Assembly: GCA_029567325.1 (NCBI GenBank)
Contig: JAKQLF010000310.1
Coordinates: 1 to 32,565 of the forward strand
Origin: Bacteroidota bacterium
GTDB lineage: Bacteria; Bacteroidota; Bacteroidia; Chitinophagales; Saprospiraceae
Direction of reading: 5' to 3'
Length of the DNA: 32,565 nt
In this document: positions 8,114-29,589 of the stretch, one piece after another
Layout: the number at the start of each line of letters is the position of its first letter
Position numbering within the stretch: the stretch's first letter is position 1
Notes under the pieces: generated by a model
Seen by the model: the letters and a program-made list of their open reading frames with translations, nothing else
What the model was told of the DNA's origin: nothing
Databases searched by the model: none
Made by a program: the position numbers and the translations under genes

Positions 8114-8292
8114 AGAGGAACATTTCATGATTTTTTAAATTGGTTATTGTGATTTTGTCATGATTTTTTGAAATTTGATCAAATATTCCGCTAAAATTAT
8201 ATTAACTTTTCATATTTCAACATGGACTTTATCTATGGTTAATACTATTTAATACCTCTGGAGTGTTTAAAACGATATTATGAAATAAAACC
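8114..8292. mobile_element. Palindromic ~180-bp element, degenerate copy
   Basis: This segment aligns along its whole length with 29410-29589, with only about three single-base gaps. Identity is roughly three quarters by eye, with runs such as ATTTTGTCATGATTTTT identical. Termini are imperfect inverted repeats (CATTTCAT near 8121 versus ATGAAAT near 8280; TTTAAA inside each). Two hairpins of the better copy are kept with wobble pairs: ATGGA 8222-8226 with TCTAT 8232-8236, and AATAC 8251-8255 with GTGTT 8263-8267. No coding sequence and no clear target duplication are visible. It lies 58 bases before the FAD oxidoreductase start. It may be a decayed miniature transposable element or a structured RNA. 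Confidence 0.65.
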
Positions 8293-8350
8293 TAAAAAAT
8301 ACATGTTAATTTTCGATTTCGATTTAATTTTTTAAAATCACCATCACAAT

Positions 8351-9457
8351 ATGGCACTGAGTTTTTGGGAAAGGGATTACTACGGTCAAATTGATTTTGC
8401 AATTTTGGGCTGCGGTATTGTTGGCTTATCCACCGCTATTCATCTCAAACAGACACAACCAGAAGCCAATATTGTAGTCATTGATAGATCTTGGCCTCCA
8501 CACGGTGCTAGTACCAAAAATGCAGGATTTGTATGCTTTGGGAGCCCAACTGAAATATTGGATGATATACAGCAAAATGGCCCGGTGACTGCAATGAATA
8601 TTTTTGAAAAGCGTTGGCTGGGTAGAGAGACTTTATTTTCTATGATAGACACAACAAATTTGGACTATCAACAAATTGGAGGATTAGAGCTTTTTGAAAA
8701 TGCTGATCTTCCAGAAAAAGAAGAAATAGATTATCTCAATCAATTGATTTACAGCAAAATAGGTATAAAAGATTATTTTGAATATGTAGAAAATAACAGT
8801 TTTCTAAATTTTAATCAAAAGGCAATTTTGGCTCAGAAAGAGGGAAGAATTAACCCAATGAAGTTGATTTTGACGCTCAAAAATATTGCCGATCAACTTG
8901 GTATAAAATTTCTATTTAAGGAGGTGAAATCTATAGACAGAACAAACAATGGTTTGGTCTTGGATCAAGATACGGTATTGCCATATAGAAAATTATTGGT
9001 TACACTCAACGCCTTTGCAGCGAAACTTTTCCAAGAACTTCAAGATGTTAAGGCTGCTCGAAATGTAGTTTTGGTAACATCACCTCTTAAGTATTTTAAT
9101 ATCAATCATGTCATCCATATAGACAAAGGTTATGTCTACATGCGGATGATCGGCAATCGGATTTTATTGGGTGGTGCAAGGAATAAGTTTTTGAACACAG
9201 AATACACTGATGAAATTTCAGTTAATGCTGAAATTGTATCTTATCTAAAGGATTATCTCAAGCATAAATTTGATATCAAAGAAGCATTTACAATAGAAGC
9301 AGCTTGGTCTGGTATTCTTGGAGTAGGTAGTAACAAAAATCCTATTATAGAAAAGTTAGATGAACATATTTATGTGGGGGTGCGAATGGGCGGAATGGGC
9401 GTGGCTATTGGTGCATTGGTAGGAAAGCAGCTAGCTGAACTATCTGCCTCTCAATAG
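8351..9457 (+). CDS. FAD-dependent oxidoreductase, DAO (glycine/D-amino acid oxidase) family
   Basis: 368-residue flavoenzyme of the DAO fold. The N-terminal dinucleotide-binding motif is AILGCGIVGLSTA (G20, G22, G25), and VVIDRSWPPHGASTKNAGFVCFGSP resembles the FAD-contacting region of glycine oxidase and sarcosine oxidase relatives. A C-terminal GVGSNKNPIIEKLDEHIYVGVRMGGMGVAIG segment is the second FAD-binding region. DAO enzymes oxidise amino or imino acids with release of peroxide, but members of this Bacteroidota group are uncharacterised as far as I know, so the substrate is open. No signal peptide is visible. The gene is convergent with ostA, whose stop lies only 2 bases away. No promoter box was found; the palindromic element occupies the upstream gap. 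Confidence 0.85.
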   Translation: MALSFWERDYYGQIDFAILGCGIVGLSTAIHLKQTQPEANIVVIDRSWPPHGASTKNAGFVCFGSPTEILDDIQQNGPVTAMNIFEKRWLGRETLFSMIDTTNLDYQQIGGLELFENADLPEKEEIDYLNQLIYSKIGIKDYFEYVENNSFLNFNQKAILAQKEGRINPMKLILTLKNIADQLGIKFLFKEVKSIDRTNNGLVLDQDTVLPYRKLLVTLNAFAAKLFQELQDVKAARNVVLVTSPLKYFNINHVIHIDKGYVYMRMIGNRILLGGARNKFLNTEYTDEISVNAEIVSYLKDYLKHKFDIKEAFTIEAAWSGILGVGSNKNPIIEKLDEHIYVGVRMGGMGVAIGALVGKQLAELSASQ

Positions 9458-9459
9458 CT

Positions 9460-11739
9460 TCATTCTTTTTTATTTTCCTTCTTTTCACCTGGTGTTGGTT
9501 CTGAATCTTGCTTTAACTCAGTGGACGGGCTTTCTAAAGTTTGAATAGTCAATGGAGTAGGTTGAAACAATTCATCTTTATTTTTAGGTTGCTCGCTGAA
9601 TCTGAGGTTGAAGTTTTTGAGCTTAATATCCTCATGGTTAGTGCCTTGCATCGGTAGTATTTTGGATTGTGGGCTATTGTAAAACCTGATATCAGAAATC
9701 TTTTTATCTGTAAAATAGAAAACCATGTAACTGCAGTCTGTAGTATTGGCTCCAATATATGCATCTTCATCATCCAACATGTAATATACAATTTGGGCAT
9801 TCCCGTTGACTCGCATTAGTTTCATTTCTCCCTCTTCAAATTCACCAACCAATACTTTACCGCCTATCTGATTGAAGAATTTGAAGTCCGTGCTATTGAT
9901 CATGAAAGCATTATCATTGACCACCAAAGAAGAAATTTTATTATCTCTCAATCCGATTCTGATCGTATCGCCTAAGATCTGCGTGGTGTCTGTCCACATG
10001 ACGGGATTATAAAACAAAGTAAAAATCGAATCCAGGTCATTGTATGCCAAAGAATCAGCGCGCGCCTGAAGATCACTCTTGTACAAAACTACATCGTCTT
10101 CAGCTATTAAATAGTTGATGCTATCCAATCCAGAAATCTGGCTGGTATCTACCATCAGTGAATCATTGAAATTTATATAGATACTATCTTTTTTAATGGA
10201 CATCGAATCCATTTTGATGGTGCTATTTGTGTCCAGCAGAATAATTGTAGAATCCTGCGAATTCAAATGAAGGCTGTCCGTTTTTGAAATAACACCTGTT
10301 TCCTTTTTTATGAATAAGGAATCCAATTTGGGTTCTGATCCTTTATCTATTTTATTTAAGTTTATATAATCAATTGACTGACTATCAATCAGTTCATTGG
10401 TTTTTACTGAATCAATACTCAATGAATCTTGACTAGTTTTTATTGAATCGTTTTGCATTTTAGATAGGGTGTCTATAACAGCAGCTTTTGGATCAATAAT
10501 TTTTCTATAAGTTCTCAAGACTCTTGCAGTAATGTATAGGGTATCACCATCTATCTCAGTGCCCATAACGGGTTTGCGATTTTGGGCTGTGGCGCGCATA
10601 AAATTGATGGTACCATCATAATCTAATGTGTCAGCCCAAATGATCAGCCCTTCTGAAGTGTCTCTGTAGACCACATTTCCAACCGCATATCCTAATTGTT
10701 TATTTTTATCATAATCCAAAAAATCCGCGTCAATAAAGAGCGGCGCATCTGCCAATTGACTTCTACCTTCAAATTTAAAAGTCTCATTCTTCTTATCATA
10801 CCTTAGTTTATCTCCCTTCGCACTATTGTCCTTCCCTCGATAGTCAGCTTTCCCGATCAGTTCAATCAACTCATTTTCACGGTCATAGATAATGGTGTCT
10901 GAAGTAGCGGTGTCACTTTGTGAGACATAAGAGGCATTTCCAAGAAGACTGATGTGATTTTTTACACCATCATAAATGATAGTGTCAGCTAGAGCGGTTA
11001 TGGTATCTTCTTCGTATTGGGCTTCCCCCATAAATATACCATTTTTGGTGTCTAGATTATAATCTCCACTTTTACTAAAGAGTCTGGCATTTTTATTTTT
11101 GATGATGGCAGGTGCATACCACGCAGCTTGTTTGGATTCAGTATTGTATCGCAATGTGTCTGTAAGAAGTGATAAGCTATCACCATCAACGCTCACTTTT
11201 GTATAAAACCATGCTTCTTTTGTTGCTGTGTTGTAGGTTCCAAATTGGCTCTTTAGCGTGTTGGTGGCATCTTTCATCAATGCTTTGTGGACGTAATCGG
11301 CCACCTTGGTAGAGAGATTGTATTTGAGGTCAGGAGCATATAAGGTATCTTGATTGTTGATCAAAATGACATCTTTTACCAAATATGCTAAAGAAGAATC
11401 ACCTTGGTAGATGAGTGTATCTGCATATATTTGTAAAGTATCTGCCTCCAAAATCGAAACATTACCTACTGCATACAAATTATTGCCAGTGAGTATGGCA
11501 TTGTCGCAAAAAATAAATGCTCCTTCGTGATAAGCTCTTACATTACCAAGATATTTGGTTACTTGAGGAGTTTGCCCTGTTTCAACAATAGCTTGATCAG
11601 CATTTTCAACAATAATCTGTGAAGATGAAACACTGTCTTTATTCGACGTATTTTGTGCAAAACCCCATTGTAAGCTTAGAGTCATGAGAAAAACCATGAA
11701 ATACTGAAGCTGTCGTGAAGGCTTGATGATCGATGACAA
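9460..11739 (-). CDS. OstA-like (LptA/LptD N-terminal fold) periplasmic protein
   Basis: Probable component of LPS transport across the periplasm. The 759-residue product has a signal peptide ending in WGFAQ (about residue 29). A long run of OstA/LptA-type beta-jellyroll repeats follows (about 35-400), with recurrent GNV.I.....ADTL.Y and GDxLxYD patterns. A Ser/Asp/Ile-rich low-complexity linker (about 430-530) leads to a second OstA-like stretch (about 540-720) and a charged tail rich in Lys, Glu and Pro. A similar architecture is known for the OstA_2 family of Bacteroidota, usually larger than proteobacterial LptA (about 185 residues). It follows topA after 11 bases, so the two are likely cotranscribed. 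MVFLMTLSLQ at residue 15 is an alternative start. Direct LPS binding is inferred from family membership. Confidence 0.85.
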   Translation of the reverse strand: MSSIIKPSRQLQYFMVFLMTLSLQWGFAQNTSNKDSVSSSQIIVENADQAIVETGQTPQVTKYLGNVRAYHEGAFIFCDNAILTGNNLYAVGNVSILEADTLQIYADTLIYQGDSSLAYLVKDVILINNQDTLYAPDLKYNLSTKVADYVHKALMKDATNTLKSQFGTYNTATKEAWFYTKVSVDGDSLSLLTDTLRYNTESKQAAWYAPAIIKNKNARLFSKSGDYNLDTKNGIFMGEAQYEEDTITALADTIIYDGVKNHISLLGNASYVSQSDTATSDTIIYDRENELIELIGKADYRGKDNSAKGDKLRYDKKNETFKFEGRSQLADAPLFIDADFLDYDKNKQLGYAVGNVVYRDTSEGLIIWADTLDYDGTINFMRATAQNRKPVMGTEIDGDTLYITARVLRTYRKIIDPKAAVIDTLSKMQNDSIKTSQDSLSIDSVKTNELIDSQSIDYINLNKIDKGSEPKLDSLFIKKETGVISKTDSLHLNSQDSTIILLDTNSTIKMDSMSIKKDSIYINFNDSLMVDTSQISGLDSINYLIAEDDVVLYKSDLQARADSLAYNDLDSIFTLFYNPVMWTDTTQILGDTIRIGLRDNKISSLVVNDNAFMINSTDFKFFNQIGGKVLVGEFEEGEMKLMRVNGNAQIVYYMLDDEDAYIGANTTDCSYMVFYFTDKKISDIRFYNSPQSKILPMQGTNHEDIKLKNFNLRFSEQPKNKDELFQPTPLTIQTLESPSTELKQDSEPTPGEKKENKKE

Positions 11740-11750
11740 TGGTTTTTATA

Positions 11751-14315
11751 CTATTTTTTTGTCTTTGTCTTTGGTTTAGCTTTCGCTTTTGCAGTTGATG
11801 CTGGGGCAGTAAAGCTTCCTGGCAATTCAGTCTCGATCCATTGTTTTACAGTTTCCAGACTGATCGTTGTAAGAGCATCTGACTCAATTTTTTCCCCTTC
11901 AACTTTTGGAATCTTTACATTCGCTTTTCTATAACGAATATATGGACCCCAACGGCCATTTTCTATGGAAATATTTTCTTCTGGCCAATGCTGAATGTAT
12001 CTGTTTGACTCTTTTTCGATCTTTGCAGAAACTAATTCTATCGCCTCAGCAGCGGTCAAATGGTCGAAATCATATTTTTTGGGCACATTCACAAACAAAT
12101 CACTCCATTTTACAAATGGACCAAATCTTCCTTTGCCTTTCGTTATCGGTAAGTTTTGGTAATGAGCTACGGGTTCAGCTTCCTTGAGTTTTTCTGAGAT
12201 GAATGTTATTGCATCCTCTTTGCTCAATTCCACAGGGTCAGTGCCTCTTGGTAAGTTTGCATATGTGTCACCCAATTTCACATAAGGACCGAATCGACCA
12301 TTGTTTACCACTAATTCTAGGCCTTTATATTCTCCAAAGGACTTTGGTAGTTTAAACAATTCCAAGGCTTCTTCCAAACTGATGGTTTCTATAGATTGAC
12401 CTGGTTTGAGATTCGCAAACTTTGGTTTTTCATCTTCCTTCAATTCGTCTACATCACCAATTTTGACAACAGGGCCATATCTCGTAATCTGCACTACAAC
12501 ACTGTGGCCAGAAACTGGATCTTTACCAATGACCTTCTTACCTTTTGCACGCTCAGCATTTTCAATCGTATCTTCTATCAATTTGTGAAAAGGAAGATAA
12601 AAGTCCTTGAGCATTTTACGCCATTCAGAATTTCCCTTTGCAACTTGATCGAGTTCATCCTCTACGTCAGCTGTAAATCCATATGTCATGACCTTTTCAA
12701 AGTGTTCGTCCAAAAAGTCAGTGACGATCATTCCTAAATCTGACGGATAAAGTCTATTGGAAGTTGCGCCAGTAGTCTCTGTTTGCATTGACTCCGTTAT
12801 TTTACCAGCTTTGAGTGTTACCACCTTGAAATTTCTAGCTTCGCCTTCTCGGCTTTCTTTGGTAACATAACCTCTATCTTGCTCCATGATTTTGCTGATG
12901 GTTGGCGCATAAGTAGAAGGTCGACCAATGCCAAGTTCTTCCAACTTTTGAACCAAACTTGCTTCTGTAAACCTGGAAGGAGGTCTGGTGAATTTTTCAG
13001 TCGCAGTCATTTGATTTAAATCCAATTCTTGACCTGCTTTGACTGGAGGAAGCATTCCTTTTACCTCCTCATCATCATCGTCATCACTACTTTCTATATA
13101 AACTGTAAGGAAACCATCAAATTTCAATACTTCCCCTTCTGCTCTTAAAGTGGCATCTGGAATGGTATTTATGCCAATATCCACAACCGTTTTCTCTAAT
13201 TGAGCATCAGCCATCTGACTAGCAATGGCCCTTTTCCAGATTAGTTCGTAAAGTTTTTGCTCATCAGGATTTCCGCTGATGTTTTTCTTTTGAATGTAGG
13301 TTGGTCTGATGGCTTCGTGAGCTTCCTGCGCATTGGCAGTTTTTGATTTATATTTTCTGATTTTGAGGTATTTCTCACCATATTCAGTGACAATTTGATT
13401 GGACATTTCTTCCAAAGCTTGATCACTGATGTTGGTACTGTCTGTTCTCATATACGTAATATGCCCCTCTTCATACAATCGCTGTGCAAGTGACATGGTA
13501 CGGTTCACACCATAATAAAGTTTTCTACTGGCCTCTTGTTGTAAAGTAGAAGTTGTAAACGGAGCAGCAGGTTTGCGTGTCAAGGGCTTTGTTTCGACAC
13601 TTTTTATTTTGAATGTAGCACCATTTGCTTTTTCAACAAAAGCTTTAGCATCTGCGATGTCAGGGATTCTATCCAATAGATCAGCTTTCAGTAAAACTTG
13701 GTCACCACGATCATTTTTCACGTTGAAAACTGCAGTAACTTTAAAATAGGGCTCTACTTCAAATGCTTGGATATTCCTTTCTCTTTCGACGATGAGCTTT
13801 ACGGCTACCGATTGAACACGACCGGCGGACAATTTGCCTTTCACTTTTCTCCAGAGCACTTCACTAAGTTCAAAGCCCACAAGTCGGTCTAGGATCCTTC
13901 TTGCTTGTTGAGCATTGACCAGGTCAAGATCTACAGTCCTGGGGTTTGTTACAGCTTTTTGAATGGCTGGTTTGGTGATTTCACTAAAGACAATTCTTTT
14001 GGTAATGTGAGGATTGAGTCCCAAAACTTCACACAAGTGCCAAGAAATGGCTTCTCCCTCACGGTCTTCATCCGTTGCAAGCCAAACCTCTGAAGCTTTT
14101 GCACTTGCATCTCTCAATTCTTTAACCACTTTTCTTTTCTCAGGAGAAATGATGTATGTTGGTTCGAAATCGTCTTGTATGGATACGCCATTACTTCCCT
14201 TATCGAGATCTCTGATGTGACCGAAACTCGACTTAACTTCAAAGTCCCCGCCTAAATATTTTTGGATGGTTTTTGCTTTTGCCGGAGACTCTACAATGAG
14301 TAGTTTTTTTGACAT
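11751..14315 (-). CDS. topA: DNA topoisomerase I (type IA)
   Basis: Relaxes negatively supercoiled DNA by single-strand passage. The 854-residue product has an N-terminal Toprim domain (KKLLIVESPAKAKTIQKYL, metal-binding ATDEDREGEAISWH with D82, D84 and E86). The catalytic Tyr288 lies in the motif YMRTDST, and the central domain includes SAGRVQSVAVKLIVERE and GIGRPSTYAPTISKI. The C-terminal part has no zinc-finger cysteines. It consists of several Toprim-C repeats (patterns such as GRFGPYVKLGD, GRFGPFVKWSD and GRWGPYIRYRK) and ends in a Lys/Ala/Thr-rich tail that probably contacts DNA. This layout is common in Bacteroidota. ATG start at 14315 fits the family. It appears to lead a two-gene unit with ostA and has a very good promoter match upstream. 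Confidence 0.96.
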   Translation of the reverse strand: MSKKLLIVESPAKAKTIQKYLGGDFEVKSSFGHIRDLDKGSNGVSIQDDFEPTYIISPEKRKVVKELRDASAKASEVWLATDEDREGEAISWHLCEVLGLNPHITKRIVFSEITKPAIQKAVTNPRTVDLDLVNAQQARRILDRLVGFELSEVLWRKVKGKLSAGRVQSVAVKLIVERERNIQAFEVEPYFKVTAVFNVKNDRGDQVLLKADLLDRIPDIADAKAFVEKANGATFKIKSVETKPLTRKPAAPFTTSTLQQEASRKLYYGVNRTMSLAQRLYEEGHITYMRTDSTNISDQALEEMSNQIVTEYGEKYLKIRKYKSKTANAQEAHEAIRPTYIQKKNISGNPDEQKLYELIWKRAIASQMADAQLEKTVVDIGINTIPDATLRAEGEVLKFDGFLTVYIESSDDDDDEEVKGMLPPVKAGQELDLNQMTATEKFTRPPSRFTEASLVQKLEELGIGRPSTYAPTISKIMEQDRGYVTKESREGEARNFKVVTLKAGKITESMQTETTGATSNRLYPSDLGMIVTDFLDEHFEKVMTYGFTADVEDELDQVAKGNSEWRKMLKDFYLPFHKLIEDTIENAERAKGKKVIGKDPVSGHSVVVQITRYGPVVKIGDVDELKEDEKPKFANLKPGQSIETISLEEALELFKLPKSFGEYKGLELVVNNGRFGPYVKLGDTYANLPRGTDPVELSKEDAITFISEKLKEAEPVAHYQNLPITKGKGRFGPFVKWSDLFVNVPKKYDFDHLTAAEAIELVSAKIEKESNRYIQHWPEENISIENGRWGPYIRYRKANVKIPKVEGEKIESDALTTISLETVKQWIETELPGSFTAPASTAKAKAKPKTKTKK

Positions 14316-14346
14316 ATATCAATAAGATTAATATTTATTTAGAATG

Positions 14347-14377
14347 CAAATGTAACGCCAATTTGTTTTTAATCAAA
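14347..14377 (-). promoter_or_regulatory. Promoter of topA
   Basis: On the minus strand TTTG (14377-14374), a 19-base spacer and TACATTTG (14354-14347) give a perfect -33/-7 match for Bacteroidota. The topA ATG begins at 14315, so the leader would be roughly 25 bases. Confidence 0.7.
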
Positions 14378-14536
14378 TTTTATGCAAAATGCTTATAGTT
14401 TATTTCTCAGTGTATTGATTATTTAGCTTTCATTTTCAAATTAATATTTGGTATTAATACATTCCTTTATATCATTCAAAAACAAAAAGAGAGTCAACTA
14501 TTAAATATTTAATAACCAAGGGCTTTGATTAATGTT

Positions 14537-14544
14537 TACATTTG
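14537..14544 (+). promoter_or_regulatory. -7 promoter box before the ABC exporter
   Basis: TACATTTG matches TAnnTTTG and lies 23 bases before the preferred ATG at 14568. No TTG at the proper distance upstream is seen. Its position supports the downstream ATG over the one at 14532, which would begin upstream of this box. Confidence 0.45.
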
Positions 14545-14567
14545 TACTTCGATTTAAAAAGTATTAC

Positions 14568-16379
14568 ATGTCCGATAGCACAAAGAAAGATCCAGAGAAA
14601 AAAGCCAAAATAACCAAAGATAGTTTGATGGCTTCGATGGGTATTTTCAGATATATCAAACCATATCGAGGTTACTTTATTGCAGGAATGGTTTTATTGG
14701 TCTTGGGGAGTATATTATTTATGGCATTCCCTGGCGTTGCTGGCGAAATGGCCAATATAGCAGTTGGCAAAGACAAATATAATCTCAATATTGAGGTTGA
14801 AGACTTTTGGTGGATCTTTTTGATCATATTGGTAGGGCAGGGTATTTTGTCTTATTTCAGAACCATCTTTTTTACCATCGTTTCTGAGAAAGGTATGGCA
14901 GATCTTCGCAAAGACTTATATGACAAGATCATCACTCAAAGCATTGGATTTTTTGAGGAAAGAAGGATAGGAGAGCTCACTAGTCGGATTACCACTGACG
15001 TAGAACAAATGCAAACTGCATTTTCTATTACCCTTGCAGAATTCCTGCGCCAAGTGATCATGTTGGTTGTGGGTGTGATCATCATTGCGGCACTTACGCC
15101 CAAACTTTCACTCATCATGTTGGGTACCTTTCCCATCATTGTAATCATAGCTGTTGTATTCGGTCGCTACATCAGGAAATTATCCAAGAAAAGACAGGAT
15201 AAACTTGCAGAAACCAATACCATTGTGGAAGAGACTTTTCAGTCTTTCAGTGTTGTGAAATCTTTTGCAAACGAATGGTTGGAGTCTATCAGATACAGCA
15301 AAAGCGTCGGCGAGGTAGTGAAAATCTCGATTGAATTTGCCAAGATCAGAGGTTTGTTTTTTGCTTTCATCATTACCATTTTATTTGGTGGATTTTTTTT
15401 CATCTTATGGAGAGGTGCTTTGCTGGTGAAAATGGGACAAATGGAAGTGGGTGATTTATTTTCCTTTATCATTTATACAGGAATTTTGGGGGGAGCAATA
15501 GCGAGTTTCAGTACTTTGTATGCAACCTTAGCTCAAGCCATCGGAGCCACCGAGCGTGTAATGGATATCATCAATGGGGGACAGGAAGTCACTCAAATCG
15601 ATGGTCCAGCTGTTCCAGCAGCCATAAAAGGAGAGATAAAGTTTGACAATGTACAATTTTCATATCCTTCCAGAAGCGATTTACCAGTCTTGAAAGGCAT
15701 AAACCTCAACATTGCCAAAGGGAATAAGATTGCGTTGGTAGGGCAGAGTGGAAGTGGCAAATCAACCATTGTGCAGCTGCTGATGAAGTTTTATCAAATT
15801 AGTGGAGGTCAAATCAGTATTGATGGCAAAGACATCAATGAGTACAATATTTCTCAACTCAGATCAGCAATGGCTATTGTTCCTCAAGAGGTAATTTTAT
15901 TTGGTGGAAGTATTAGAGAAAATATCCTTTACGGAAAACCAACAGCCACTGAATTTGAATTGGAGGAGGCTGCCAGAAAAAGTAATAGTTTGGAGTTCAT
16001 CAATTCATTTCCAGATGGTTTTGAAACGATTGTAGGGGATAGAGGGATAAAACTTTCTGGCGGGCAAAGACAACGTATTGCCATCGCAAGAGCTATTCTA
16101 AAAGACCCAGCCATTTTAATTTTGGACGAAGCTACTTCTTCTTTGGATGCGGGTTCTGAAAAAGTTGTTCAGGATGCGCTAGACTTTTTATTGGAAGGTA
16201 GAACATCTATCATTATTGCACACAGGTTATCTACGATCAAAGATGTAGACCACATATATGTATTGGATAAAGGCACCATTGCAGAGGAGGGTAGTCACGA
16301 GGAATTATTAGCCAAAGAGGAAGGTATTTACAGTAATTTGGCCAAACTGCAATTTGATGTAAGGATGGCTAATAGCTGA
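14568..16379 (+). CDS. ABC exporter half-transporter, MsbA/ABCB-like
   Basis: 603-residue inner-membrane exporter with a fused membrane domain and ATPase. Six membrane helices span about residues 25-320, with the coupling-helix-like SIGFFEERRIGELTSRITTDVEQMQ segment of type I exporters. The nucleotide-binding domain has Walker A GQSGSGKST (392-400), a Q-loop within AIVPQEVILFGGSI, the signature LSGGQRQRIAIARA starting near 496, Walker B ILILDEATSSLD (D520) and the H-loop IIIAHRLST. It works as a homodimer. The substrate (lipid, LPS core or drug) cannot be told from sequence. ATG 14568 is preferred over the ATG 12 codons upstream because a promoter-like box lies between them. It converges with the MazG-like gene, with no good terminator in the 42-base gap. 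Confidence 0.9.
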   Translation: MSDSTKKDPEKKAKITKDSLMASMGIFRYIKPYRGYFIAGMVLLVLGSILFMAFPGVAGEMANIAVGKDKYNLNIEVEDFWWIFLIILVGQGILSYFRTIFFTIVSEKGMADLRKDLYDKIITQSIGFFEERRIGELTSRITTDVEQMQTAFSITLAEFLRQVIMLVVGVIIIAALTPKLSLIMLGTFPIIVIIAVVFGRYIRKLSKKRQDKLAETNTIVEETFQSFSVVKSFANEWLESIRYSKSVGEVVKISIEFAKIRGLFFAFIITILFGGFFFILWRGALLVKMGQMEVGDLFSFIIYTGILGGAIASFSTLYATLAQAIGATERVMDIINGGQEVTQIDGPAVPAAIKGEIKFDNVQFSYPSRSDLPVLKGINLNIAKGNKIALVGQSGSGKSTIVQLLMKFYQISGGQISIDGKDINEYNISQLRSAMAIVPQEVILFGGSIRENILYGKPTATEFELEEAARKSNSLEFINSFPDGFETIVGDRGIKLSGGQRQRIAIARAILKDPAILILDEATSSLDAGSEKVVQDALDFLLEGRTSIIIAHRLSTIKDVDHIYVLDKGTIAEEGSHEELLAKEEGIYSNLAKLQFDVRMANS

Positions 16380-16421
16380 GCTAGCACAAGCCATGAGCAA
16401 ATGTCTGAGGGATCTAAATAC

Positions 16422-16898
16422 TTAATCCAAAACTACTTTTGCAACTTCAGCAGCAGAATAATTGATTGATTTTAAAACTTTACTGTCTTCCTTGCGGTAA
16501 ACCAAATATTCTCCTTCTTTTTCAACAATGTAGGAATCAGTTGCTTTTGTTGCTAAATAATATTCTTGAGTTTTAATTGCTTCTTCATATGTTTTGCATG
16601 TTTTGCTCATATTTGATCTTTGGACCTCATCAAACAAAGCGCTGAATTTACTTCCTAATCCTAGTTCAAGGATGGCGCCACTCAAAACATATTGCAAATC
16701 AGCCAGTGCATCTGCAGCCTCTACCAAGTCATTATTTTCGAGCGCATCTTTAAGCTCTTGCAATTCTTCTGCTAAAAGACTGATTCTCAATTTACAACGG
16801 TCTTCTGAGGGGATGGCTGGTGTTTCAATAACGGGTAGTCCAAAAGTACGGTGAAATTTTGCAACACCATTGAGTGCTTGAGCTTCATCAAAAGTCAT
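16422..16898 (-). CDS. MazG-like nucleotide pyrophosphohydrolase (all-alpha NTP-PPase)
   Basis: 158-residue protein of the MazG/phosphoribosyl-ATP pyrophosphohydrolase superfamily, which removes pyrophosphate from nucleoside triphosphates or related compounds using Mg. The four-helix core is at about 30-110. The metal-binding residues fit the ExxE...ExxD pattern: E44, E45 and E48 in LLAEELQELKDAL, then E60, D63 and D67 in VEAADALADLQYVL. The C-terminal ~50 residues (YYLATKATDSYIVEKEGEYLVYRKEDSKVLKSINYSAAEV) form an extra region read as a small domain. This is a house-cleaning or specialised enzyme rather than HisE, since no his genes are near. A -7 box lies 16 bases upstream. Confidence 0.82.
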   Translation of the reverse strand: MTFDEAQALNGVAKFHRTFGLPVIETPAIPSEDRCKLRISLLAEELQELKDALENNDLVEAADALADLQYVLSGAILELGLGSKFSALFDEVQRSNMSKTCKTYEEAIKTQEYYLATKATDSYIVEKEGEYLVYRKEDSKVLKSINYSAAEVAKVVLD

Positions 16899-16914
16899 GT
16901 TTGAATATTTTTGG

Positions 16915-17570: not shown

Positions 17571-17575
17571 GTACC

Positions 17576-21828: not shown

Positions 21829-21937
21829 TACGTGTTAAATTATTTATTTATACAAAAGCAGATCAAACGAAAGTTAAATTGTCTAATTCCGTTTGGTATA
21901 AGATCACAAAAATCAACAATTTGTATCAAGTTTGAAA

Positions 21938-21959
21938 GCGTTTAATATTTTATTAACGC
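21938..21959 (-). terminator. Possible terminator after pyrRB
   Basis: GCGTT(T)AAT and ATTAACGC form an 8-bp stem with one bulge, 13 bases past the pyrB stop when read on the minus strand. There is no long T run after it, so function is uncertain. Confidence 0.35.
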
Positions 21960-21971
21960 AATTTTTAATGT

Positions 21972-22895: not shown

Positions 22896-23447
22896 CTATA
22901 TTATTTCGTTTTGTCCTGAATACATGGTTATTACGTCATTACCTTCCAATCCCCAAGCTACTTTTACATATGCGTCGTCCAAAGCATCAACTGCCAATCC
23001 TGTATAGTCTGGAGCGATTGGTAAATGTCTATTGAATCTTCTATCCACCAAACAAAGCAGTTCGAGTAATGCGGGTCTTCCAAAATCTTGAATAGCAGAA
23101 ATTGCAGCATGAACCGTACGTCCTGTATACAACACATCATCAACCAAAATGACCCTTTTGTTTTCTACCAAAAAGTTTATTTCAGTCGATGCTGCCTTTA
23201 AAGGTTTTTCTCTTTGCCGGTAATCGTCTCGGTAAAAGGTGATATCCAATTTACCGTATTGTGGAACTTTATTTTTGTTGATTTTTTTCAGACGACTCAT
23301 CAATCTATCTGATAGGAGCGCACCTCTTTCTTGAATTCCAATGAGGCAAACGTCTTCGAAAGTATCATAATTTTCAATGAGCTGATAACAAAGCCTATCT
23401 ATTGTAAGCTCAAATCCTTTCCCAGCTAGTATGATCCTTCCTGACAT
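22896..23447 (-). CDS. pyrR: PyrR-like pyrimidine regulator / uracil phosphoribosyltransferase
   Basis: PRTase-fold protein that in Firmicutes binds pyr mRNA in a UMP-dependent way and has some uracil phosphoribosyltransferase activity. From ATG 23447 the product is 183 residues (MSGRIILAGKGFELTIDRL), the family size. The frame is open 13 codons further to 23486, but that would add an unusual leader. The PRPP loop is VILVDDVLYTGRT at 99-111, and KLDITFYRDD (about 66-75) and LVDRRFNRHLPIAPDY are typical PyrR segments. It directly precedes pyrB, supporting a pyrimidine role. A -7 box lies only 8 bases before ATG 23447, so the mRNA may be nearly leaderless; that would leave no room for a classical PyrR attenuator downstream of this promoter. 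Confidence 0.9.
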   Translation of the reverse strand: MSGRIILAGKGFELTIDRLCYQLIENYDTFEDVCLIGIQERGALLSDRLMSRLKKINKNKVPQYGKLDITFYRDDYRQREKPLKAASTEINFLVENKRVILVDDVLYTGRTVHAAISAIQDFGRPALLELLCLVDRRFNRHLPIAPDYTGLAVDALDDAYVKVAWGLEGNDVITMYSGQNEII

Positions 23448-23455
23448 AATGGTCG

Positions 23456-23463
23456 CAAATATA
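23456..23463 (-). promoter_or_regulatory. -7 promoter box before pyrR
   Basis: TATATTTG on the minus strand ends 8 bases before ATG 23447. No -33 TTG lies at 17-23 bases. If used, it gives an mRNA with almost no 5' leader. Confidence 0.45.
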
Positions 23464-23531
23464 CCAAAGGAAATGAATTTGACCATTTTCTTGTTGCAAA
23501 TTTAATCTATATCTTCATCATTCAATTTCGC

Positions 23532-23547
23532 CTTAGCTTAGGCTAAG
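23532..23547 (-). other. Small hairpin at the stop of a short ORF upstream of pyrR
   Basis: CTTAGC and GCTAAG form a 6-bp stem with a 4-base loop. The TAA stop codon of the 40-residue open frame at 23538-23660 lies at the hairpin tip (23540-23538). No T run follows on the minus strand, so it is not a canonical terminator. Confidence 0.4.
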
Positions 23548-23660
23548 ATCCAATTTCTATCTTCGATCGCAATCAAATTTTCTACACAATAATTCTGGTC
23601 AATCCAATTTCCGGTTGGTATATAGCAATCGAAAGCAAAAATATTGAGTTTCTGCTGCAT
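23538..23660 (-). CDS. Possible 40-residue protein upstream of pyrR, unrecognised
   Basis: ATG 23660 to TAA 23540-23538 on the minus strand encodes a 40-residue peptide with no Cys pairs, membrane segment or motif that I recognise; it begins MQQKLNIFAFDCYIPTGNW. It lies between the glucosidase stop (38 bases upstream) and pyrR (90 bases downstream), in the same direction as both. It could be a gene remnant, a small protein, a leader peptide, or chance. No ribosome-binding site or promoter box stands out. Confidence that it is translated is low. Confidence 0.25.
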   Translation of the reverse strand: MQQKLNIFAFDCYIPTGNWIDQNYCVENLIAIEDRNWILA

Positions 23661-23698
23661 ATTTATTTAGTCATCATTTGACCTTAATTTCAAAAGAA

Positions 23699-26431
23699 CT
23701 ATAAATCTTTTTTTATCTGTGGAGTCAAGTTTATTTCAGGAATTCCAATGGCAGATTTATCAATAACAGGTTCTGGTATTTTAAGCCCAGTGTAGTTATG
23801 TTCTTTCAAATCCAGGATAAGATTTGCAACGATTCCCGTCCAACCAGTTTGGTGTGATGCTCCTAAACCTCTACCGCTATCTCCATGGAAATATTCGTAA
23901 AACAATACCAGATCATTGAATTTTTTATCCCGATAAATGCGCCGGTGACTTTGATTGATCGGACGATCGCCATCTTCATTTTTACGGAATAAATTGACCA
24001 GTCTATGACTTATTTCTAAACTTATTTCCAGCGCATTCATCATGTTTCCAGTCCCTTTTGGAAATTCGAATGAAAGTTCATTTCCATAATATTTGTGATA
24101 TTCTTTCAGAGACTCAATGATGATGTAATTCATTGGAATCCAAATCGGGCCGCGCCAATTGGAGTTGCCTCCAAACATGTAGGACGTAGATTCAGCTGGG
24201 TCATAACGGATGCCAAAAGCAGCACCATCAATTTTGATACTGTAAGGTTTTTTATGAATTTTAGAAAGCGACCTGATGCCATAATCGCTTAGGAATTCTT
24301 GTTCATCTATCAGTGTTTTGATCAAAATTTTCATTCGATCTTTGGGTACCAATGCGAGCATGATGTCATCACCATCCGCGTAATGTTCAATTACCAAATA
24401 TTTTCCACTGCGCTTTCTGTAATTTCTAAACCAAATCATGCGGTCTTTAAAACCTGGCAGACTTTCCAAGGTTTCATTACTGATGACCATGACTGGATTG
24501 AGGGTCATCAAACCAACCAATGACCTGGTTTTGAGCGGAATAGCTTCATTATTTGGTCGCACCAAAACGTCAAAAAAGAATCCATCTATTTCATCCCACA
24601 AACTTTTACCATCTTCATTGAGGGAGTTTAGAGATTCTGCGATGTAAACAAAATGCTCAAAAAACTTAGTAGCCATTTCTTCGTAAGAGTTATCCACCTT
24701 CGAAATTTCGAGTGCTATTTGCAACATATTTAAGGCATAAAGCGCCATCCACGCGGTACCGTCTGCTTGCTCTAAATGTCCACCCCCAGGCATGGATTGA
24801 CTTCTGTCAAAGATTCCAATGTTATCCAAACCGAGGAATCCGCCTTCAAAGATATTTTTATCGTATTTGTCTTTTTGATTTACCCACCAGGTGAAGTTGA
24901 TCACCAACTTATTGAAGATTTTTTTCAAAAAGTTGACATCACCTTTTCCGGTAATTTTTTTGTCTATTTCATAAACTTTGAAGGTAGCCCAAGCTTGCAC
25001 AGGCGGATTTACATCGCTGAAAGACCATTCATAAGCTGGAATTTGCCCTTTGGTAGACATGTACCATTCCCTCAAAACCAAGGACATCTGATGTTTGGCA
25101 AAAGAAGGGTCAAGCAATGCAAGTGGAATGCAATGAAATGCCAAATCCCAGGCAGCATACCATGGATATTCCCATTTGTCGGGCATGCTGATGATGTCTT
25201 CATTGATGAGATTTTTCCACTGACTATTCCGACCGTATTTGCGCCATGGTTCAGGGTTTGGTTGTTTTGGATCGCCTTTCAACCATTCCTCCATGTTGAG
25301 ATTGTAATATTGCTTGGTCCAAAGCATTCCAGAAAGCGCCTGCCTCAAAATATTGGTATCATCCTCAGTAAGTCCATCTGAAAAATGATTGTAGAACTCG
25401 TTGGCTTCTTCTTTGCGCTCTTGCATGGTTTGGAGAAATTCCTCGCCAAGCGGATCGCTGAGATCTTTGACATTACTCAACCTCAATTTCACACTTGCAG
25501 AAGATTTACCCTCTAACTCCATTTCGTAAAGTGGAGAAAATTTTGTACCATAGAGTCTTTGGTCGGTTAGCGTGAAGTCATCATTAATCACTACCTCATG
25601 AAACAGATCCTTTACATATGGGCTTTCATTTTCGATGCCAAATAATCGCTCAGCATTGGTATTGTTTTCTGTGAAAAGCCATTTTTTGGGCTTGTCAAAG
25701 TATAAAAAATAATCGTATAATCTTGGATGTTGCGCCATCACCGAGCAAAAATCATCACCTTCTCTTTGTTTGGTAAGAATAGGAATTTTATCTACAAACT
25801 TAAATCCCCAATCATTTCTAAAAAGTAGGGTAGGGAGTATCGAGATTTTGGCTTTGTTGTTACTTCTGTTTTTTACACTGATTTTGATGCAAATATCGGT
25901 TTCTGTCTTTTTTGCGTAAGTAATGAAAATATCAAAATAATCCTTTTTAGTAAATAGGTCAGTGTCTAGGATTTCATATTCCAAGTGTTGGAGTCCTCTT
26001 CTTCTATTGATATTCACCAAATCGCCATATGGGTACTGATTGTGTGAGTACTTATACAAGTATTTCATGTAGGAATGCGTCGGTGTATTATCCAGATAGT
26101 AATACAATTCTTTTACATCCTCGCCATGGTTTCCTTCAGGTCCAGTCAAACCAAAAAGCCTTTCTTTTAAAATAGAATCTTTGCCATTCCATACAGCAAG
26201 AGAAAAGCATAAGTTACATTTTATGTCACTGATTCCGGCAATTCCATCTTCGCCCCAACGATAAACTCTGCTCCGGGCAAGGTCGTGGGTGAAATAACCC
26301 CAAGCATCCCCATTGGCACTGTAATCTTCCCTCACTGTTCCCCACTGCCGCTCACTCAGGTATGGCCCCCAGATATGCCACTTTCTACCTTCTCTGTGGT
26401 TTTGTTTCAGCCTGCTTATTTCTGCCCCCAT
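23699..26431 (-). CDS. MGH1-type glycoside hydrolase (GH63-like glucosidase)
   Basis: Large (about 910 residues) probable alpha-glucosidase-type enzyme, cytoplasmic by lack of a signal peptide. ATG 26431 is chosen because the product then starts MGAEISRLKQNHREGRKWHIWGPYLSERQW, the usual N-terminus of this family; the frame is open to an ATG 21 codons upstream. The N-terminal beta-rich part is about 1-380, with WGTVREDYSANGDAW near its beginning. The (alpha/alpha)6 catalytic barrel is about 390-880, with WYAAWDLAFHCIPLALLDP, YEWSFSDVNPPVQAWA, FDRSQSMPGGGHLEQADGTAW and NWRGPIWIPMNY. The last is the conserved glucosidase segment of the GH63/GH37 clan. Which glucoside it acts on is not readable. 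The neighbours (pyrR on one side, mdh on the other) give no pathway clue. Confidence 0.82.
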   Translation of the reverse strand: MGAEISRLKQNHREGRKWHIWGPYLSERQWGTVREDYSANGDAWGYFTHDLARSRVYRWGEDGIAGISDIKCNLCFSLAVWNGKDSILKERLFGLTGPEGNHGEDVKELYYYLDNTPTHSYMKYLYKYSHNQYPYGDLVNINRRRGLQHLEYEILDTDLFTKKDYFDIFITYAKKTETDICIKISVKNRSNNKAKISILPTLLFRNDWGFKFVDKIPILTKQREGDDFCSVMAQHPRLYDYFLYFDKPKKWLFTENNTNAERLFGIENESPYVKDLFHEVVINDDFTLTDQRLYGTKFSPLYEMELEGKSSASVKLRLSNVKDLSDPLGEEFLQTMQERKEEANEFYNHFSDGLTEDDTNILRQALSGMLWTKQYYNLNMEEWLKGDPKQPNPEPWRKYGRNSQWKNLINEDIISMPDKWEYPWYAAWDLAFHCIPLALLDPSFAKHQMSLVLREWYMSTKGQIPAYEWSFSDVNPPVQAWATFKVYEIDKKITGKGDVNFLKKIFNKLVINFTWWVNQKDKYDKNIFEGGFLGLDNIGIFDRSQSMPGGGHLEQADGTAWMALYALNMLQIALEISKVDNSYEEMATKFFEHFVYIAESLNSLNEDGKSLWDEIDGFFFDVLVRPNNEAIPLKTRSLVGLMTLNPVMVISNETLESLPGFKDRMIWFRNYRKRSGKYLVIEHYADGDDIMLALVPKDRMKILIKTLIDEQEFLSDYGIRSLSKIHKKPYSIKIDGAAFGIRYDPAESTSYMFGGNSNWRGPIWIPMNYIIIESLKEYHKYYGNELSFEFPKGTGNMMNALEISLEISHRLVNLFRKNEDGDRPINQSHRRIYRDKKFNDLVLFYEYFHGDSGRGLGASHQTGWTGIVANLILDLKEHNYTGLKIPEPVIDKSAIGIPEINLTPQIKKDL

Positions 26432-26783
26432 TTCGATATTATTACCTGTATTTAAAGATACTTTACGCAATATCATAAAAAAACTAAAATGCATAATACA
26501 AAAACCTGATTTTTGTTTTAACTGTGTGTTTTATTATCCTTAATTATATCTTATGAAGGGATTGTGGGTTAATAATGTATATTCGATGGCTTGATTTTTT
26601 AGTTATCTTTTGCCAATGGTCAAATATTAAGAATTTGTGAATTTTCAAACAATTGTACTACAATCAGATTAATTATCATTTTAGTTAATATAGATTTGAA
26701 ATTCAAAAGTTATTCTATTTGAATTTCTTATTTTTGCGTTCAAATTATAAAAGTTATTAATATTAATCATTATTTAGAGAATT
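26432..26783. other. Divergent intergenic region between glucosidase and mdh
   Basis: AT-rich DNA separating two divergent genes. The first ~63 bases could belong to the glucosidase if its upstream ATG is used. I see one -7 box for mdh and no convincing box for the glucosidase (TATCTTTA at 26460-26453 on the minus strand is a one-mismatch candidate). No other structure is recognised. Confidence 0.6.
26729..26736 (+). promoter_or_regulatory. -7 promoter box before mdh
   Basis: TATTTTTG matches TAnnTTTG and lies 47 bases before the mdh ATG. TTTG boxes occur at 26718-26721 and 26695-26698, but at unsuitable spacing (7 and 30 bases), so the -33 element is unclear. Confidence 0.45.
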
Positions 26784-27719
26784 ATGAGTAAGGTTACAGT
26801 AATTGGAGCAGGTAACGTAGGCGCAACCGTAGCAAATGTCCTGGCTCACAGAGATTTTGTGAATGAAATAGTGTTGGTGGATATCAGGGGTGAAATGGCT
26901 GAAGGAAAGGCTTTGGATACTTGGCAACAAGCACCAATTGATTATTATAGTACTAAATTGACAGGTACAGGCGATTATGCTTTGACTGCTGATTCAGATG
27001 TAGTGGTAATTACCGCTGGTTTGCCAAGAAAACCGGGAATGAGTAGAGATGATTTGATTTCTACGAATGCAGGTATTGTGGTTTCTTGTGTAAAGAGTGT
27101 ACTTCAATACAGCAAAGATCCCATCATCATCATCGTTTCAAATCCATTGGATGTCATGACGCATGCAGCTTTTAAGGCTTCATGTTTGCCATCTAGCAAA
27201 GTTTTTGGAATGGCGGGCATCTTGGATACAGCAAGATACAGAGCATTTTTATCAACTGAATTGAAAGTTTCACCAAAGGATATCCAAGCAGTATTGATGG
27301 GCGGTCATGGTGATACCATGGTTCCACTTCCAAGATACACAACCGTTGGTGGTATTCCAGTTACAGAGTTGATCGATGCTGATAAATTGGACGCAATCGT
27401 TGAGCGCACCAAAAAGGGTGGTGGAGAATTGGTACAATTAATGGGAACTTCTGCTTGGTATGCTCCAGGTGCAGCAGCTGCTCAAATGGTTGAAGCCATT
27501 CTTAAAGACGAAAACAGAATTTTCCCTGTTTGTGCTAAAACTGAAGGCACTTATGGCGTTGAAGATATGTATTTAGGCGTTCCTGTGAAATTGGGGAAAG
27601 GTGGTATCAAAGAAATCATCGAACTCAAACTCAACGAGGAAGAAAAGGCTTTACTCAATGCCTCTGCAATTGCGGTAAAAGAAGTCATTGATGTATTTGA
27701 CAATATGAATTTGATTTAA
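26784..27719 (+). CDS. mdh: Malate dehydrogenase (LDH-like type)
   Basis: NAD-dependent oxidation of malate to oxaloacetate in the TCA cycle. The 311-residue product has the Rossmann motif IGAGNVGATVA (G8, G10, G13) and D33, which binds the NAD ribose. The mobile loop is LPRKPGMSRDD, with R82 (malate-type specificity, where lactate dehydrogenase has Gln) and R88. The catalytic His175 is in GGHGDTMVPL. This belongs to the LDH-like MDH group (MDH type 3) rather than the E. coli dimeric type. ATG start agrees with the family. A strong hairpin terminator follows about 70 bases after the stop, and the gene appears monocistronic. Confidence 0.96.
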   Translation: MSKVTVIGAGNVGATVANVLAHRDFVNEIVLVDIRGEMAEGKALDTWQQAPIDYYSTKLTGTGDYALTADSDVVVITAGLPRKPGMSRDDLISTNAGIVVSCVKSVLQYSKDPIIIIVSNPLDVMTHAAFKASCLPSSKVFGMAGILDTARYRAFLSTELKVSPKDIQAVLMGGHGDTMVPLPRYTTVGGIPVTELIDADKLDAIVERTKKGGGELVQLMGTSAWYAPGAAAAQMVEAILKDENRIFPVCAKTEGTYGVEDMYLGVPVKLGKGGIKEIIELKLNEEEKALLNASAIAVKEVIDVFDNMNLI

Positions 27720-27790
27720 TTTGAAAGTAATAAGGGAAATCTGAATGGATTAAAGTTTCAGATCTTTCTTAGACTTGATAATAGAAATAT

Positions 27791-27834
27791 ACGTCATGCC
27801 AAAAGTTTTGAACAGCTTTGGCATGACGTTTTTG
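27791..27834 (+). terminator. Strong intrinsic terminator of mdh
   Basis: ACGTCATGCCAAA (27791-27803) pairs perfectly over 13 bp with TTTGGCATGACGT (27817-27829), and the 3' arm continues into a T run. It lies between convergent genes and could also slow minus-strand transcription from 27880, although the minus-strand T run is weaker. Confidence 0.9.
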
Positions 27835-27879
27835 TTTAGACTATTTTTTTTGTATTAATAGATATAACTAGATTGGAGA

Positions 27880-28587
27880 TCAAAATTTAATCCCCATACC
27901 CAACCTAAATTTCAATGGATTGTAGATGTCAATCTGTTGTCCGTTATTTGAAAGAGCATCGTCCTTAAACATAACATTAAATGCTCTGACCTGAGCAAAG
28001 TATTGTATGTCATTTTTCTCCAAATCCATTCCAATGAAGCTTTCTAAATCTGAAGGTTCGAAAGTCCATTTTTCGAAATTCTGAAGATTAACAGCATTTT
28101 TTCTCCTCACTAATTTATGAAATGACATGCATAATGTATTTGTTGAAATCAAACCCACTTTCCTCTTGCGATCTAAATAATATTTAAAGTCAATTGGGAT
28201 ATATAAACTACTCTTTATGTAAAGATTATTGAAAATTAAAATCTTATAATCAACATCAAAATATTTTAAATTAATAGGGTATTTTACTGAATTACCTTTT
28301 AAAAGTAAACCTAGCCCACCTTTTATATAGAATCGATTTTTTTTTAATATCTCAATATGTATACTAGAATAAATATCAATTGCTATCCTATTTTTCCCAT
28401 TATTCTTAACTGTTTCAACTATGGGGCTCCAACCTTTAGGCAAAAAATCTGTGCGCTTGTCAGCCTCTGCTAATGAAAAACCAGATTGGATGCTTATTTT
28501 TTCTTGCCAAAAATTTTGAGAAAAAAGATCATAGGGTATTATTTGTAAAGCAGCATAGATTATTATAATTTTATGAAGTCGTCTCAT
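27880..28587 (-). CDS. Secreted beta-barrel-like protein, paralogue of the next gene
   Basis: 235-residue protein of unknown function with a signal peptide (MRRLHKIIIIYAALQIIPYDLFSQ) and many alternating short strands, ending in GMGIKF with a terminal Phe, as expected for an outer-membrane beta-barrel. It is clearly homologous to the gene directly upstream (28593-29291). Shared elements include the LFSQNF cleavage region, KNRFYxxGG, LYIK, DFKYYL, EPSDLESFIG, FKDDAL and a C-terminus of the form YNPLKFRLGMGxKF. The ATG is 5 bases after the stop of that neighbour, so the two form an operon created by tandem duplication. No functional domain is recognised. Confidence 0.7.
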   Translation of the reverse strand: MRRLHKIIIIYAALQIIPYDLFSQNFWQEKISIQSGFSLAEADKRTDFLPKGWSPIVETVKNNGKNRIAIDIYSSIHIEILKKNRFYIKGGLGLLLKGNSVKYPINLKYFDVDYKILIFNNLYIKSSLYIPIDFKYYLDRKRKVGLISTNTLCMSFHKLVRRKNAVNLQNFEKWTFEPSDLESFIGMDLEKNDIQYFAQVRAFNVMFKDDALSNNGQQIDIYNPLKFRLGMGIKF

Positions 28588-28592
28588 ATCAT

Positions 28593-29291
28593 TTAAAATT
28601 TCATACCCATACCCAACCTAAACTTCAATGGATTATAATAGTCAATTTCTTTGCCATTGTTTCTGAGTGCATCATCCTTAAACATTAAATTAAATACCCG
28701 GATTTGGCCAAAATATTGAAATTTATCCCTGTCTATACCAAGACCAATAAAGCTTTCAATATCTGAGGGATCCAATGTCCATTTGCTAAAATGACTATAT
28801 TTACCTTGACTATAACCCCAATTTTTAACCCACTTATGAAAGGTTAAACTCATTGTATTTGAAGAGATTAAACTTATTTTTCTTTTGTTTGAAAGATAAT
28901 ATTTGAAATCAAGAGGTAAGTATAAATTATTCTTTATGTACAAGGAATTATACCAAAGTGGCTGTATGGATAAATTAAAATAGGCCAAATTTATAACATT
29001 GGCAACTCTGTGAATATTTACTAAATAACCAATTCCACCTTGAACATAAAATCGGTTTTTATTTAGCAATTGCCTATTGATGCTGATATAAAAATCGGAC
29101 TCCAATTTGATATTGCCGAACCCACTTGTATTATTACCACCATTCAAAGGAGCTTTTCGTGTATCAGCTTTGCCAATGGAAAGGCCAACTTGAAAACTTA
29201 CTTTTTCAGATAAAAAGTTTTGAGAGAAAAGATCTATTTCTATAATCATCACTGCAGCAAGAATGATCAGTATTTTACTTTTTCTAAACAT
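28593..29291 (-). CDS. Secreted beta-barrel-like protein, first of a tandem pair
   Basis: 232-residue protein with a signal peptide (MFRKSKILIILAAVMIIEIDLFSQ) and beta-strand-rich mature part ending in GMGMKF. It is the upstream member of the tandem pair with 27880-28587. The N-terminal ~90 mature residues are the most divergent between the two (GGNNTSGFGNIKL here versus GWSPIVETVKNNGK in the other), whereas the C-terminal third is highly alike. Such a pattern suggests different exposed loops on a common barrel. No promoter box was found upstream; its start faces the palindromic element about 120 bases away. Function is not known to me. Confidence 0.7.
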   Translation of the reverse strand: MFRKSKILIILAAVMIIEIDLFSQNFLSEKVSFQVGLSIGKADTRKAPLNGGNNTSGFGNIKLESDFYISINRQLLNKNRFYVQGGIGYLVNIHRVANVINLAYFNLSIQPLWYNSLYIKNNLYLPLDFKYYLSNKRKISLISSNTMSLTFHKWVKNWGYSQGKYSHFSKWTLDPSDIESFIGLGIDRDKFQYFGQIRVFNLMFKDDALRNNGKEIDYYNPLKFRLGMGMKF

Positions 29292-29409
29292 GTTTCATCT
29301 TAAAGGTGGACTGAAGAATATTCCGAAATATTAAAAATACATATAAAACCTACATCTAGTCAATAGGCCTATAAAACTTTAACATTTATTCTTTAAATAT
29401 ATTGTCTGT

Positions 29410-29589
29410 AGGGGTGCATTTCATCACTTCTTAAATTTGTAGGTGGGATTTTGTCATGATTTTTGGAAGCTTCGCCAAAAAACCCCGCCAAAATCATATT
29501 CACTTTTCATTTTTCGCAATGGACTTCATCCATGGTTATTAATATTTAACCCCCTCTGGGTTATTTAAAAGGTAGTGATGAAATGCACC
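29410..29589. mobile_element. Palindromic ~180-bp element with terminal inverted repeats
   Basis: The ends GGTGCATTTCATCACT (29413-29428) and AGTGATGAAATGCACC (29574-29589) are perfect 16-bp inverted repeats, continued by TTAAAT/ATTTAA. Inside are three hairpins. The first is GATTTTG/CAAAATC (29447-29453 with 29489-29495), enclosing TTTTTGG/CCAAAAA (29460-29466 with 29475-29481). The others are ATGGA/TCCAT (29519-29523 with 29529-29533) and TAACCC/GGGTTA (29547-29552 with 29558-29563). The whole could fold as a multi-arm cruciform or RNA. TGTCTGT occurs on both sides (29403-29409 and 29590-29596), a candidate target-site duplication, though three bases separate the left copy from the inverted repeat. 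A related copy lies at 8114-8292. It has no coding capacity, so if mobile it needs a transposase in trans. Confidence 0.7.

Follow-up and report, generated by a model that had tools for sequence, protein, structure and literature searches.

The window, i.e. the whole stretch of 32,565 nucleotides analysed here, contains two related elements, designated copy 1 and copy 2. Copy 1 is located between divergent genes with the Pfam names DUF4293 and FAD-dependent oxidoreductase. In a global alignment the segments 8114-8292 and 29410-29589 were identical in 135 of 181 columns, with three one-base gaps. The alignment score was 83, and 1000 dinucleotide shuffles gave a mean of -28.8 (sd 6.1, maximum -10; z ~18). 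Thus, the end-to-end likeness described in an earlier note on this DNA was confirmed, and no shuffle approached the real score. No listed ORF of at least 90 aa overlaps either copy, in agreement with the description of both as non-coding.

Copy 2 is well preserved and extends, outermost bases included, from 29412 to 29590 (+), as determined by genome search, inverted arms and target duplication (TSD). Its left terminal inverted repeat (TIR), GGTGCATTTCATCACTTC, was found by inverted-repeat analysis at 29413-29430 (+). The right TIR at 29572-29589 (-) is identical to it in 17 of 18 bases, and the arms 29413-29428 and 29574-29589 form a perfect inverted pair of 16 bp. In the target-duplication test the TSDs were located at 29404-29411 (GTCTGTAG) and 29591-29598 (GTCTGTCG) on the + strand, with 7/8 bases in common. 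Copy 1 is decayed and covers 8117-8292 (+; 176 bp); counting the outermost base adds one position at either end. Alignment with other copies placed its decayed TIRs at 8117-8134 (+) and 8275-8292 (-), where a residual arm pair of 10 nt with 90% complementarity is left. The statement that both copies carry TIRs is fully true of copy 2 only, because the ends of copy 1 are decayed.

Inside these ends, three hairpins (HP1, HP2 and HP3) were found in both copies. The covariance model R1 matched copy 2 at 29447-29561 with 97 bits and copy 1 at 8151-8264 with 61 bits; copy 2 is among the 26 sequences of the model and copy 1 is outside it. The internal hairpins claimed as common to both segments were recovered by these matches. 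In copy 2, HP1 is located at 29447-29495, HP2 with one broken pair at 29517-29535 and HP3 at 29549-29561 (all +). HP1 consists here of the outer stem GATTTTG/CAAAATC, the internal loop TCAT/CCGC and an inner stem formed by GATTTTTGG and its partner, and has one A more than most copies. The corresponding hairpins of copy 1 (+) are HP1 with some pairs broken (8151-8198), HP2 (8220-8238) and HP3 with one pair broken (8252-8264). The folding of copy 2 was better than that of 200/200 shuffles on each strand (z -4.3 and -4.6). For copy 1 a z of -1.2 was obtained, and 23 of 200 shuffles were equally good.

Two adjoining paralogous genes of the window (27880-28587 and 28593-29291 (-)) are 51% identical by tblastn and have no Pfam match. 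In the congener stretches examined, this gene pair was not found beside the AhpC-like gene.

A dispersed family with target duplications

With copy 2 as query against its own genome (5.8 Mb, 402 contigs), 39 separate places were found at E <= 1.5e-4, both window copies included. The dispersed family predicted from two copies does exist. Three of its copies (on C110, C268 and C135) reach a contig end or stop at most 2 bases short of it. Full copies measure ~178 bp and end in the inverted repeats GGTGCATTTCATCACTTC and its complement; the TIR begins with GGTGC, and the end sequence of the family is GGTGCATTTYAYSACTTC. A search for the TIR in the own genome gave 40 matches with <=3 mismatches, compared with 1 for a control pattern. 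Ten TIR-like places are situated outside the copies. Two of them are right-end remnants (L041, L049), additional to the 39 places, and at the other eight no transposon was seen by eye. Within one region, G000:C373:1942-2267 (L012, L036), two copies stand side by side, the second one strongly diverged.

The target duplications were examined with the 29 copies having both flanks (30 in an earlier version, with L036). At fixed bounds the 8-bp flanks matched in 4.45 bases on average, compared with 2.46 in 2000 permutations (sd 0.23, maximum 3.36). A match of 7-8 of the 8 bases was present in 6/29 copies and did not occur in the 2000 permutations. With one base of slack 9/29 copies were counted (permutation mean 0.57, maximum 4).

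Furthermore, the orthologous site of copy 1 was inspected in five congeners. In four of them the gap between the DUF4293 and the oxidoreductase gene is 112, 46, 47 and 47 bp long, versus 333 bp with copy 1, and R1 detected no element in the gap of these four. For the fifth congener (G005) no DUF4293 gene was found in the stretch examined. The sole other R1 match in the congener stretches was a 23-nt fragment outside the gap (L259, E 3.2). Hence, the empty orthologous sites looked for are present for copy 1 in 4/4 congeners which keep the gene pair. The left neighbour of copy 2 was seen in none of the five congeners examined.

The TIRs, the 8-bp TSDs and the empty site of copy 1 identify the element as a MITE. 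Dispersed copies complete this picture, and with ~178 bp of non-coding DNA the element is within the size range of 70-300 bp. Host-maintained transcription terminators or mRNA stabilisers that multiply by ordinary duplication only would also be intergenic and conserved: 0/22 HP1 sites of the own genome are situated within a called ORF of at least 80 aa, and HP1 and HP2 are conserved. However, the TSDs and empty sites show transposition, and no clear T run directly after the hairpins was visible by eye. We consider this explanation highly improbable.

Search for an autonomous partner and for known families

No autonomous element with the TIR of the window family was found in the own genome (402 contigs) and in the ~3-kb stretches read from 150 family genomes. 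A TIR-like match was present in 19/150 family genomes, own included. Apart from the own copies, facing ends were detected in these ~3-kb stretches at one locus of G005 only (L224, 1501-1871). There, 371 bp of other contents, without the three-hairpin module, are enclosed by facing TIRs, and no clear duplication was seen by eye. An IS1595 partner was rejected: the domain PF12762 gave 0 matches in the own genome (402 contigs), and the one match (L247, also G005) is in a stretch without the window TIR at < 6 mismatches.

Members of the IS66 family generate 8-bp duplications, and their ends start with GTAA. The window family shares the 8-bp TSD with them. In contrast, its TIR starts with GGTGC, and the IS66 domain PF03050 gave 0 matches in the own genome (402 contigs) at E <= 1e-3. 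An IS66-derived MITE is not supported for the window family in these contigs.

Searches of plasmids, phages and viral contigs were negative at the limits chosen. In the part of the literature that was accessible, the element was not found described.

The three-hairpin module

The inner module HP1-HP2-HP3 covaries. In many cases HP1 is followed after ~20-30 nt by HP2, and a spacer of the type CTATTAATATTT leads to HP3; HP2 or HP3 is missing in some cases. Covariation was analysed with 26 sequences (alignment A2), which were picked for having HP2 and HP3, come in several cases from one genome and omit the listed L017, L106 and L127. On these 26 sequences 14 pairs change on both sides, and 76 double-changed cells were counted versus 26.5 after shuffling. 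When the partner was slid by one column, pairing dropped from 92% to 56-58%. Covarying stems, named in the earlier note as a mark of a mobile structured element, were thus found. Since the core letters of HP1 were fixed by the search pattern itself, independence from this pattern is limited to HP2, HP3 and, within HP1, the apical stem and the outermost pairs.

Among 40 near genomes, three matched copy 2 at E <= 1e-3 (own, G004 and G005), and G004 and G005 match it in the inner part only. The core-hairpin pattern was found in 72 stretches of genome_contigs, which, with three exceptions, bear the titles of Bacteroidota groups. These three, titled 'Bacillota' (L079), 'Chlorobiota' (L139) and unplaced bacterium (L081), may be misbinned contigs. 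With R1, 31 of 395 phylum genomes, own included, gave matches at E <= 1e-3 with stricter filters, most of them weak. Among 19 such loci that were read, the HP1 core is present in L189 and L190. In several others (e.g. L192, L193, L194) HP2, spacer and HP3 follow a first hairpin of another kind, and some matches resemble chance (L195).

Two arrangements were observed in other genomes. Three units with a common core hairpin (L062, L066, L068) follow each other at ~240 bp spacing in G004:C50:24375-24912. A common stretch like TTTCATRTGTTTATAATTTTGTA precedes HP1 in L085, L089, L099, L102, L107 and L129, and in some cases it overlaps the start of a gene called on the opposite strand.

A structured regulatory RNA, i.e. 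a 5' UTR element or sRNA dispersed by chance whose HP1-3 transcripts act on neighbouring genes, would account for the strong covariation and for the good conservation of HP1 and HP2 among the copies. Among the loci of named genomes, a start facing HP1 was seen for the HP1-side gene in 40 versus 24 cases, with some sites counted repeatedly. The distance from HP1 to such a gene start is 33-47 nt in L087, L089, L091, L101, L107, L124 and L139, and in these seven loci a same-strand gene is on the far side. In the own genome, however, no orientation preference was seen at 22 sites (left gene + 11 and - 10, right gene + 9 and - 9). At gathering score Rfam matched only tRNA in the window and nothing at the element; four matches to the element at E <= 5 were all far below the gathering scores. 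Whichever strand is read, the 17 variable pairs contain few wobble pairs (12 G-T and 29 A-C of 431 cells), which is not decisive. As the TSDs show transposition, the RNA explanation appears unlikely.

Units beside Y1 genes

Y1 domains (PF01797) were detected in the own genome (6 places) and in 14/14 genomes searched, all of which bear HP1. R1 matched at E < 0.01 at 9 of 36 loci with Y1 genes, compared with 1 of 31 other loci, which were not a random sample: they had been chosen for TIR-like words or the IS1595 match, and loci with family copies were left out. At four of the nine (L075, L178, L179, L180) the gene has matches to its left and right, and those of L179 alternate in orientation. The sole matching comparison locus (L231) is itself an HP1 module, with repeat-like ends by eye. 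In the own genome the HP2-spacer-HP3 architecture flanks Y1 genes at L075, L076 and L077 with differing letters. A first hairpin of other sequence precedes HP2-HP3 in L171 and L178. Thus, the three-hairpin plan is shared, the letters of HP1 are not. The HP1 sequence with both arms was found at 0/30 RAYT loci, and two of the RAYT loci (L167, L183) contain one HP1-arm-like word each with 2 changes. By reading and R1, no HP1 sequence was seen at the six Y1 loci of the own genome.

The accessible part of PMC6006769 describes 'atypical secondary structures' beside TnpA_REP (RAYT) genes of subclass 2.6, mostly in Bacteroidetes. As far as this description goes, unusual hairpins beside Y1 genes, further copies elsewhere in the genome and the occurrence mostly in Bacteroidetes are common to both systems, whereas the window element has in addition TIRs, 8-bp TSDs and an HP1 with a sequence peculiar to it (PMC6006769). 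Compared by description only and not by sequences, the present HP2-HP3 units may be the repeats of this subclass (PMC6006769).

The units beside Y1 genes in the own and other genomes, and the Y1 domains in all 14 HP1-bearing genomes searched, are what would be expected of a pure REP/BIME-like unit that is moved as ssDNA by RAYT (Y1), with the terminal repeats being incidental. Y1 transposition is not known to make target duplications. The 8-bp TSDs are statistically clear and recur with other TIRs, and the search of RAYT loci did not recover the HP1 sequence; both argue against such a unit, the TSDs in the case of the TIR-bearing copies, and we regard it as quite improbable.

The module in other transposon-like elements

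Flanks were also compared for 105 HP1 rows (85 distinct sites). With several offsets allowed, nine rows had an inverted repeat flanked by an 8/8 duplication, three from the own genome (L006, L008, L021) and six from five other genomes (L095, L100, L126, L134, L137, L143). In the five other genomes the module is therefore enclosed by elements with TIRs and 8-bp TSDs, in four of them with ends unlike those of the window family. The ends fall into classes: GTAACTATTTA (L095, L143), TACTACTCAGCAG (L100, L126, L137) and GGGTGCATTT (L134), which is like the window family. The inverted repeat was better than the best of 30 shuffles in 4/9 rows (L008, L095, L100, L134), equal to it in L126 and L137 and below it in L006, L021 and L143. 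Since the inverted repeat by itself is significant in 4/9 rows, the case for other transposons is based on the duplications and on ends that recur among members of a class. In the majority of the 105 rows both a significant TIR and a full TSD are lacking. In the TACTACTCAGCAG class the position of HP3 is unpaired in L100 and L126, and L137 looks alike by eye.

For one member of the TACTACTCAGCAG class a possible trace of a transposon gene was found. In G041 the right end of L137 matches the end of an ORF piece in 27/40 bases (null maximum 20 within the locus). The same end matched with 28 bases in L100 and with 24 in L126 and L138. No family was matched by the ORF piece itself. It is directly preceded by a piece in a different frame that matched IS66 models with E 1e-4 and 4.6e-8, below the model cut-offs. 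Both pieces are probably parts of one broken gene. The resemblance of the GTTACTACTCAGCAG class end to the ORF piece adjoining the IS66-like piece is a further likeness to the IS66 family, beside the 8-bp TSD.

Proposed composition of the element

The best explanation for these results, to which we assign a probability of about 75%, is a non-autonomous MITE of ~178 bp that is inserted by a DDE enzyme with an 8-bp TSD and carries a REP-like three-hairpin module. The new MITE family and its mobility are well supported, and the composite nature, a REP-type unit within a MITE, is likely. The earlier note had left the choice between MITE and REP-like element. Seemingly both apply, the TIRs and 8-bp TSDs standing for the MITE and the module, like the units adjoining RAYT genes, for the REP side.

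Presumably, a DDE-type transposase acts in trans at the TIRs, inserts the element and duplicates 8 target bases. The payload would be the three-hairpin module. Its first hairpin, HP1, has a conserved sequence and the internal loop TCAT/CCGC, and the units on the RAYT side can have a first hairpin as well, of other sequence. As the HP2-spacer-HP3 architecture is the one found beside RAYT/TnpA_REP (Y1) genes, the element gives the impression of a REP-type unit enclosed in a MITE. Transposition by the DDE enzyme would spread the entire unit into intergenic DNA. The hairpins may be kept since they fold and are bound, either as ssDNA by the Y1 enzyme or as structures of a transcript.

Bacterial MITEs including RUP, NEMIS and Nezha are characterised, in the accessible part of PMC3733652, by 70-300 bp, TIRs of 15-30 bp and no coding capacity. 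Measured by that part, the window element resembles them in size, TIRs and lack of coding (PMC3733652). It differs from them as described there in the conservation of HP1 and HP2, which exceeds that of the TIRs, and in the related inner modules that recur with other TIRs (PMC3733652).

If the composition as REP-type unit within a MITE is true, REP-type hairpin units are clients of RAYT and also repeated cargo of DDE MITEs, and such cargo is a route for palindromic repeats through a phylum. HP1 is a concrete target for finding its binder. A still wider reading is tentative and rather doubtful. The three-hairpin unit could be a phylum-wide module riding two unrelated machineries, the ssDNA hairpins of Y1/RAYT and DDE transposition with exchangeable TIRs. 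HP1 (TCAT/CCGC) would then be an undescribed recognition structure, as DNA or RNA, on which selection acts, and it might have been domesticated in the intergenic regions of Bacteroidota.

Conservation within the copies

Mean pairwise identity was determined with 30 of 40 aligned places, i.e. the 39 places and C348. L011, L029, L030 and L033-L039 were omitted as partial, shortened or strongly decayed. Because these ten were left out and the copies had been found by similarity, conserved copies are favoured in all values. The stems of HP1 reached 0.94-0.97, its internal loop 0.90 and HP2 0.95. HP3 (0.87) was no higher than the adjoining spacer (0.87). Identity was lowest in the TIRs (0.68-0.69) and in the apical loop of HP1 (0.68), followed by the spacer between HP1 and HP2 (0.76) and by the subterminal parts (0.77 and 0.81). 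Thus, the hairpins are better kept than their surroundings, and HP1 and HP2 better than the TIRs, unlike in a simple MITE. Between the TIR arms 21 joint-change cells were counted versus 8.5 expected, mostly from two changes, each common to about eight copies. The identity value of the TIRs is lowered by such subfamilies.

In groups of nine copies each with falling TSD match (7-8, 5-6 and 3-4 bases), the identity to the majority was 0.97, 0.95 and 0.97 for the hairpins, 0.89, 0.78 and 0.72 for the TIRs and 0.86, 0.82 and 0.86 for the spacers. As the spacers are likewise steady along this series, the loss of the TSD is no clean clock for selection after insertion. Constraint on the transposing copies would explain the conservation of the hairpins equally well. 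With HP1 and HP2 conserved beyond the TIRs, the question 'selfish or useful?' becomes testable.

Single copies of the own genome deviate from the common structure. In L003, L013 and L017, HP2 or HP3 is altered by a small internal insertion or duplication: L017 has a second HP2, and L003 and L013 have a GGGCCC-containing insertion in HP3. In L024 (G000:C238:2903) the 3' half of the internal loop of HP1 now reads ATGA, which makes HP1 a nearly perfect palindrome. This change looks as though it had been copied from the opposite arm.
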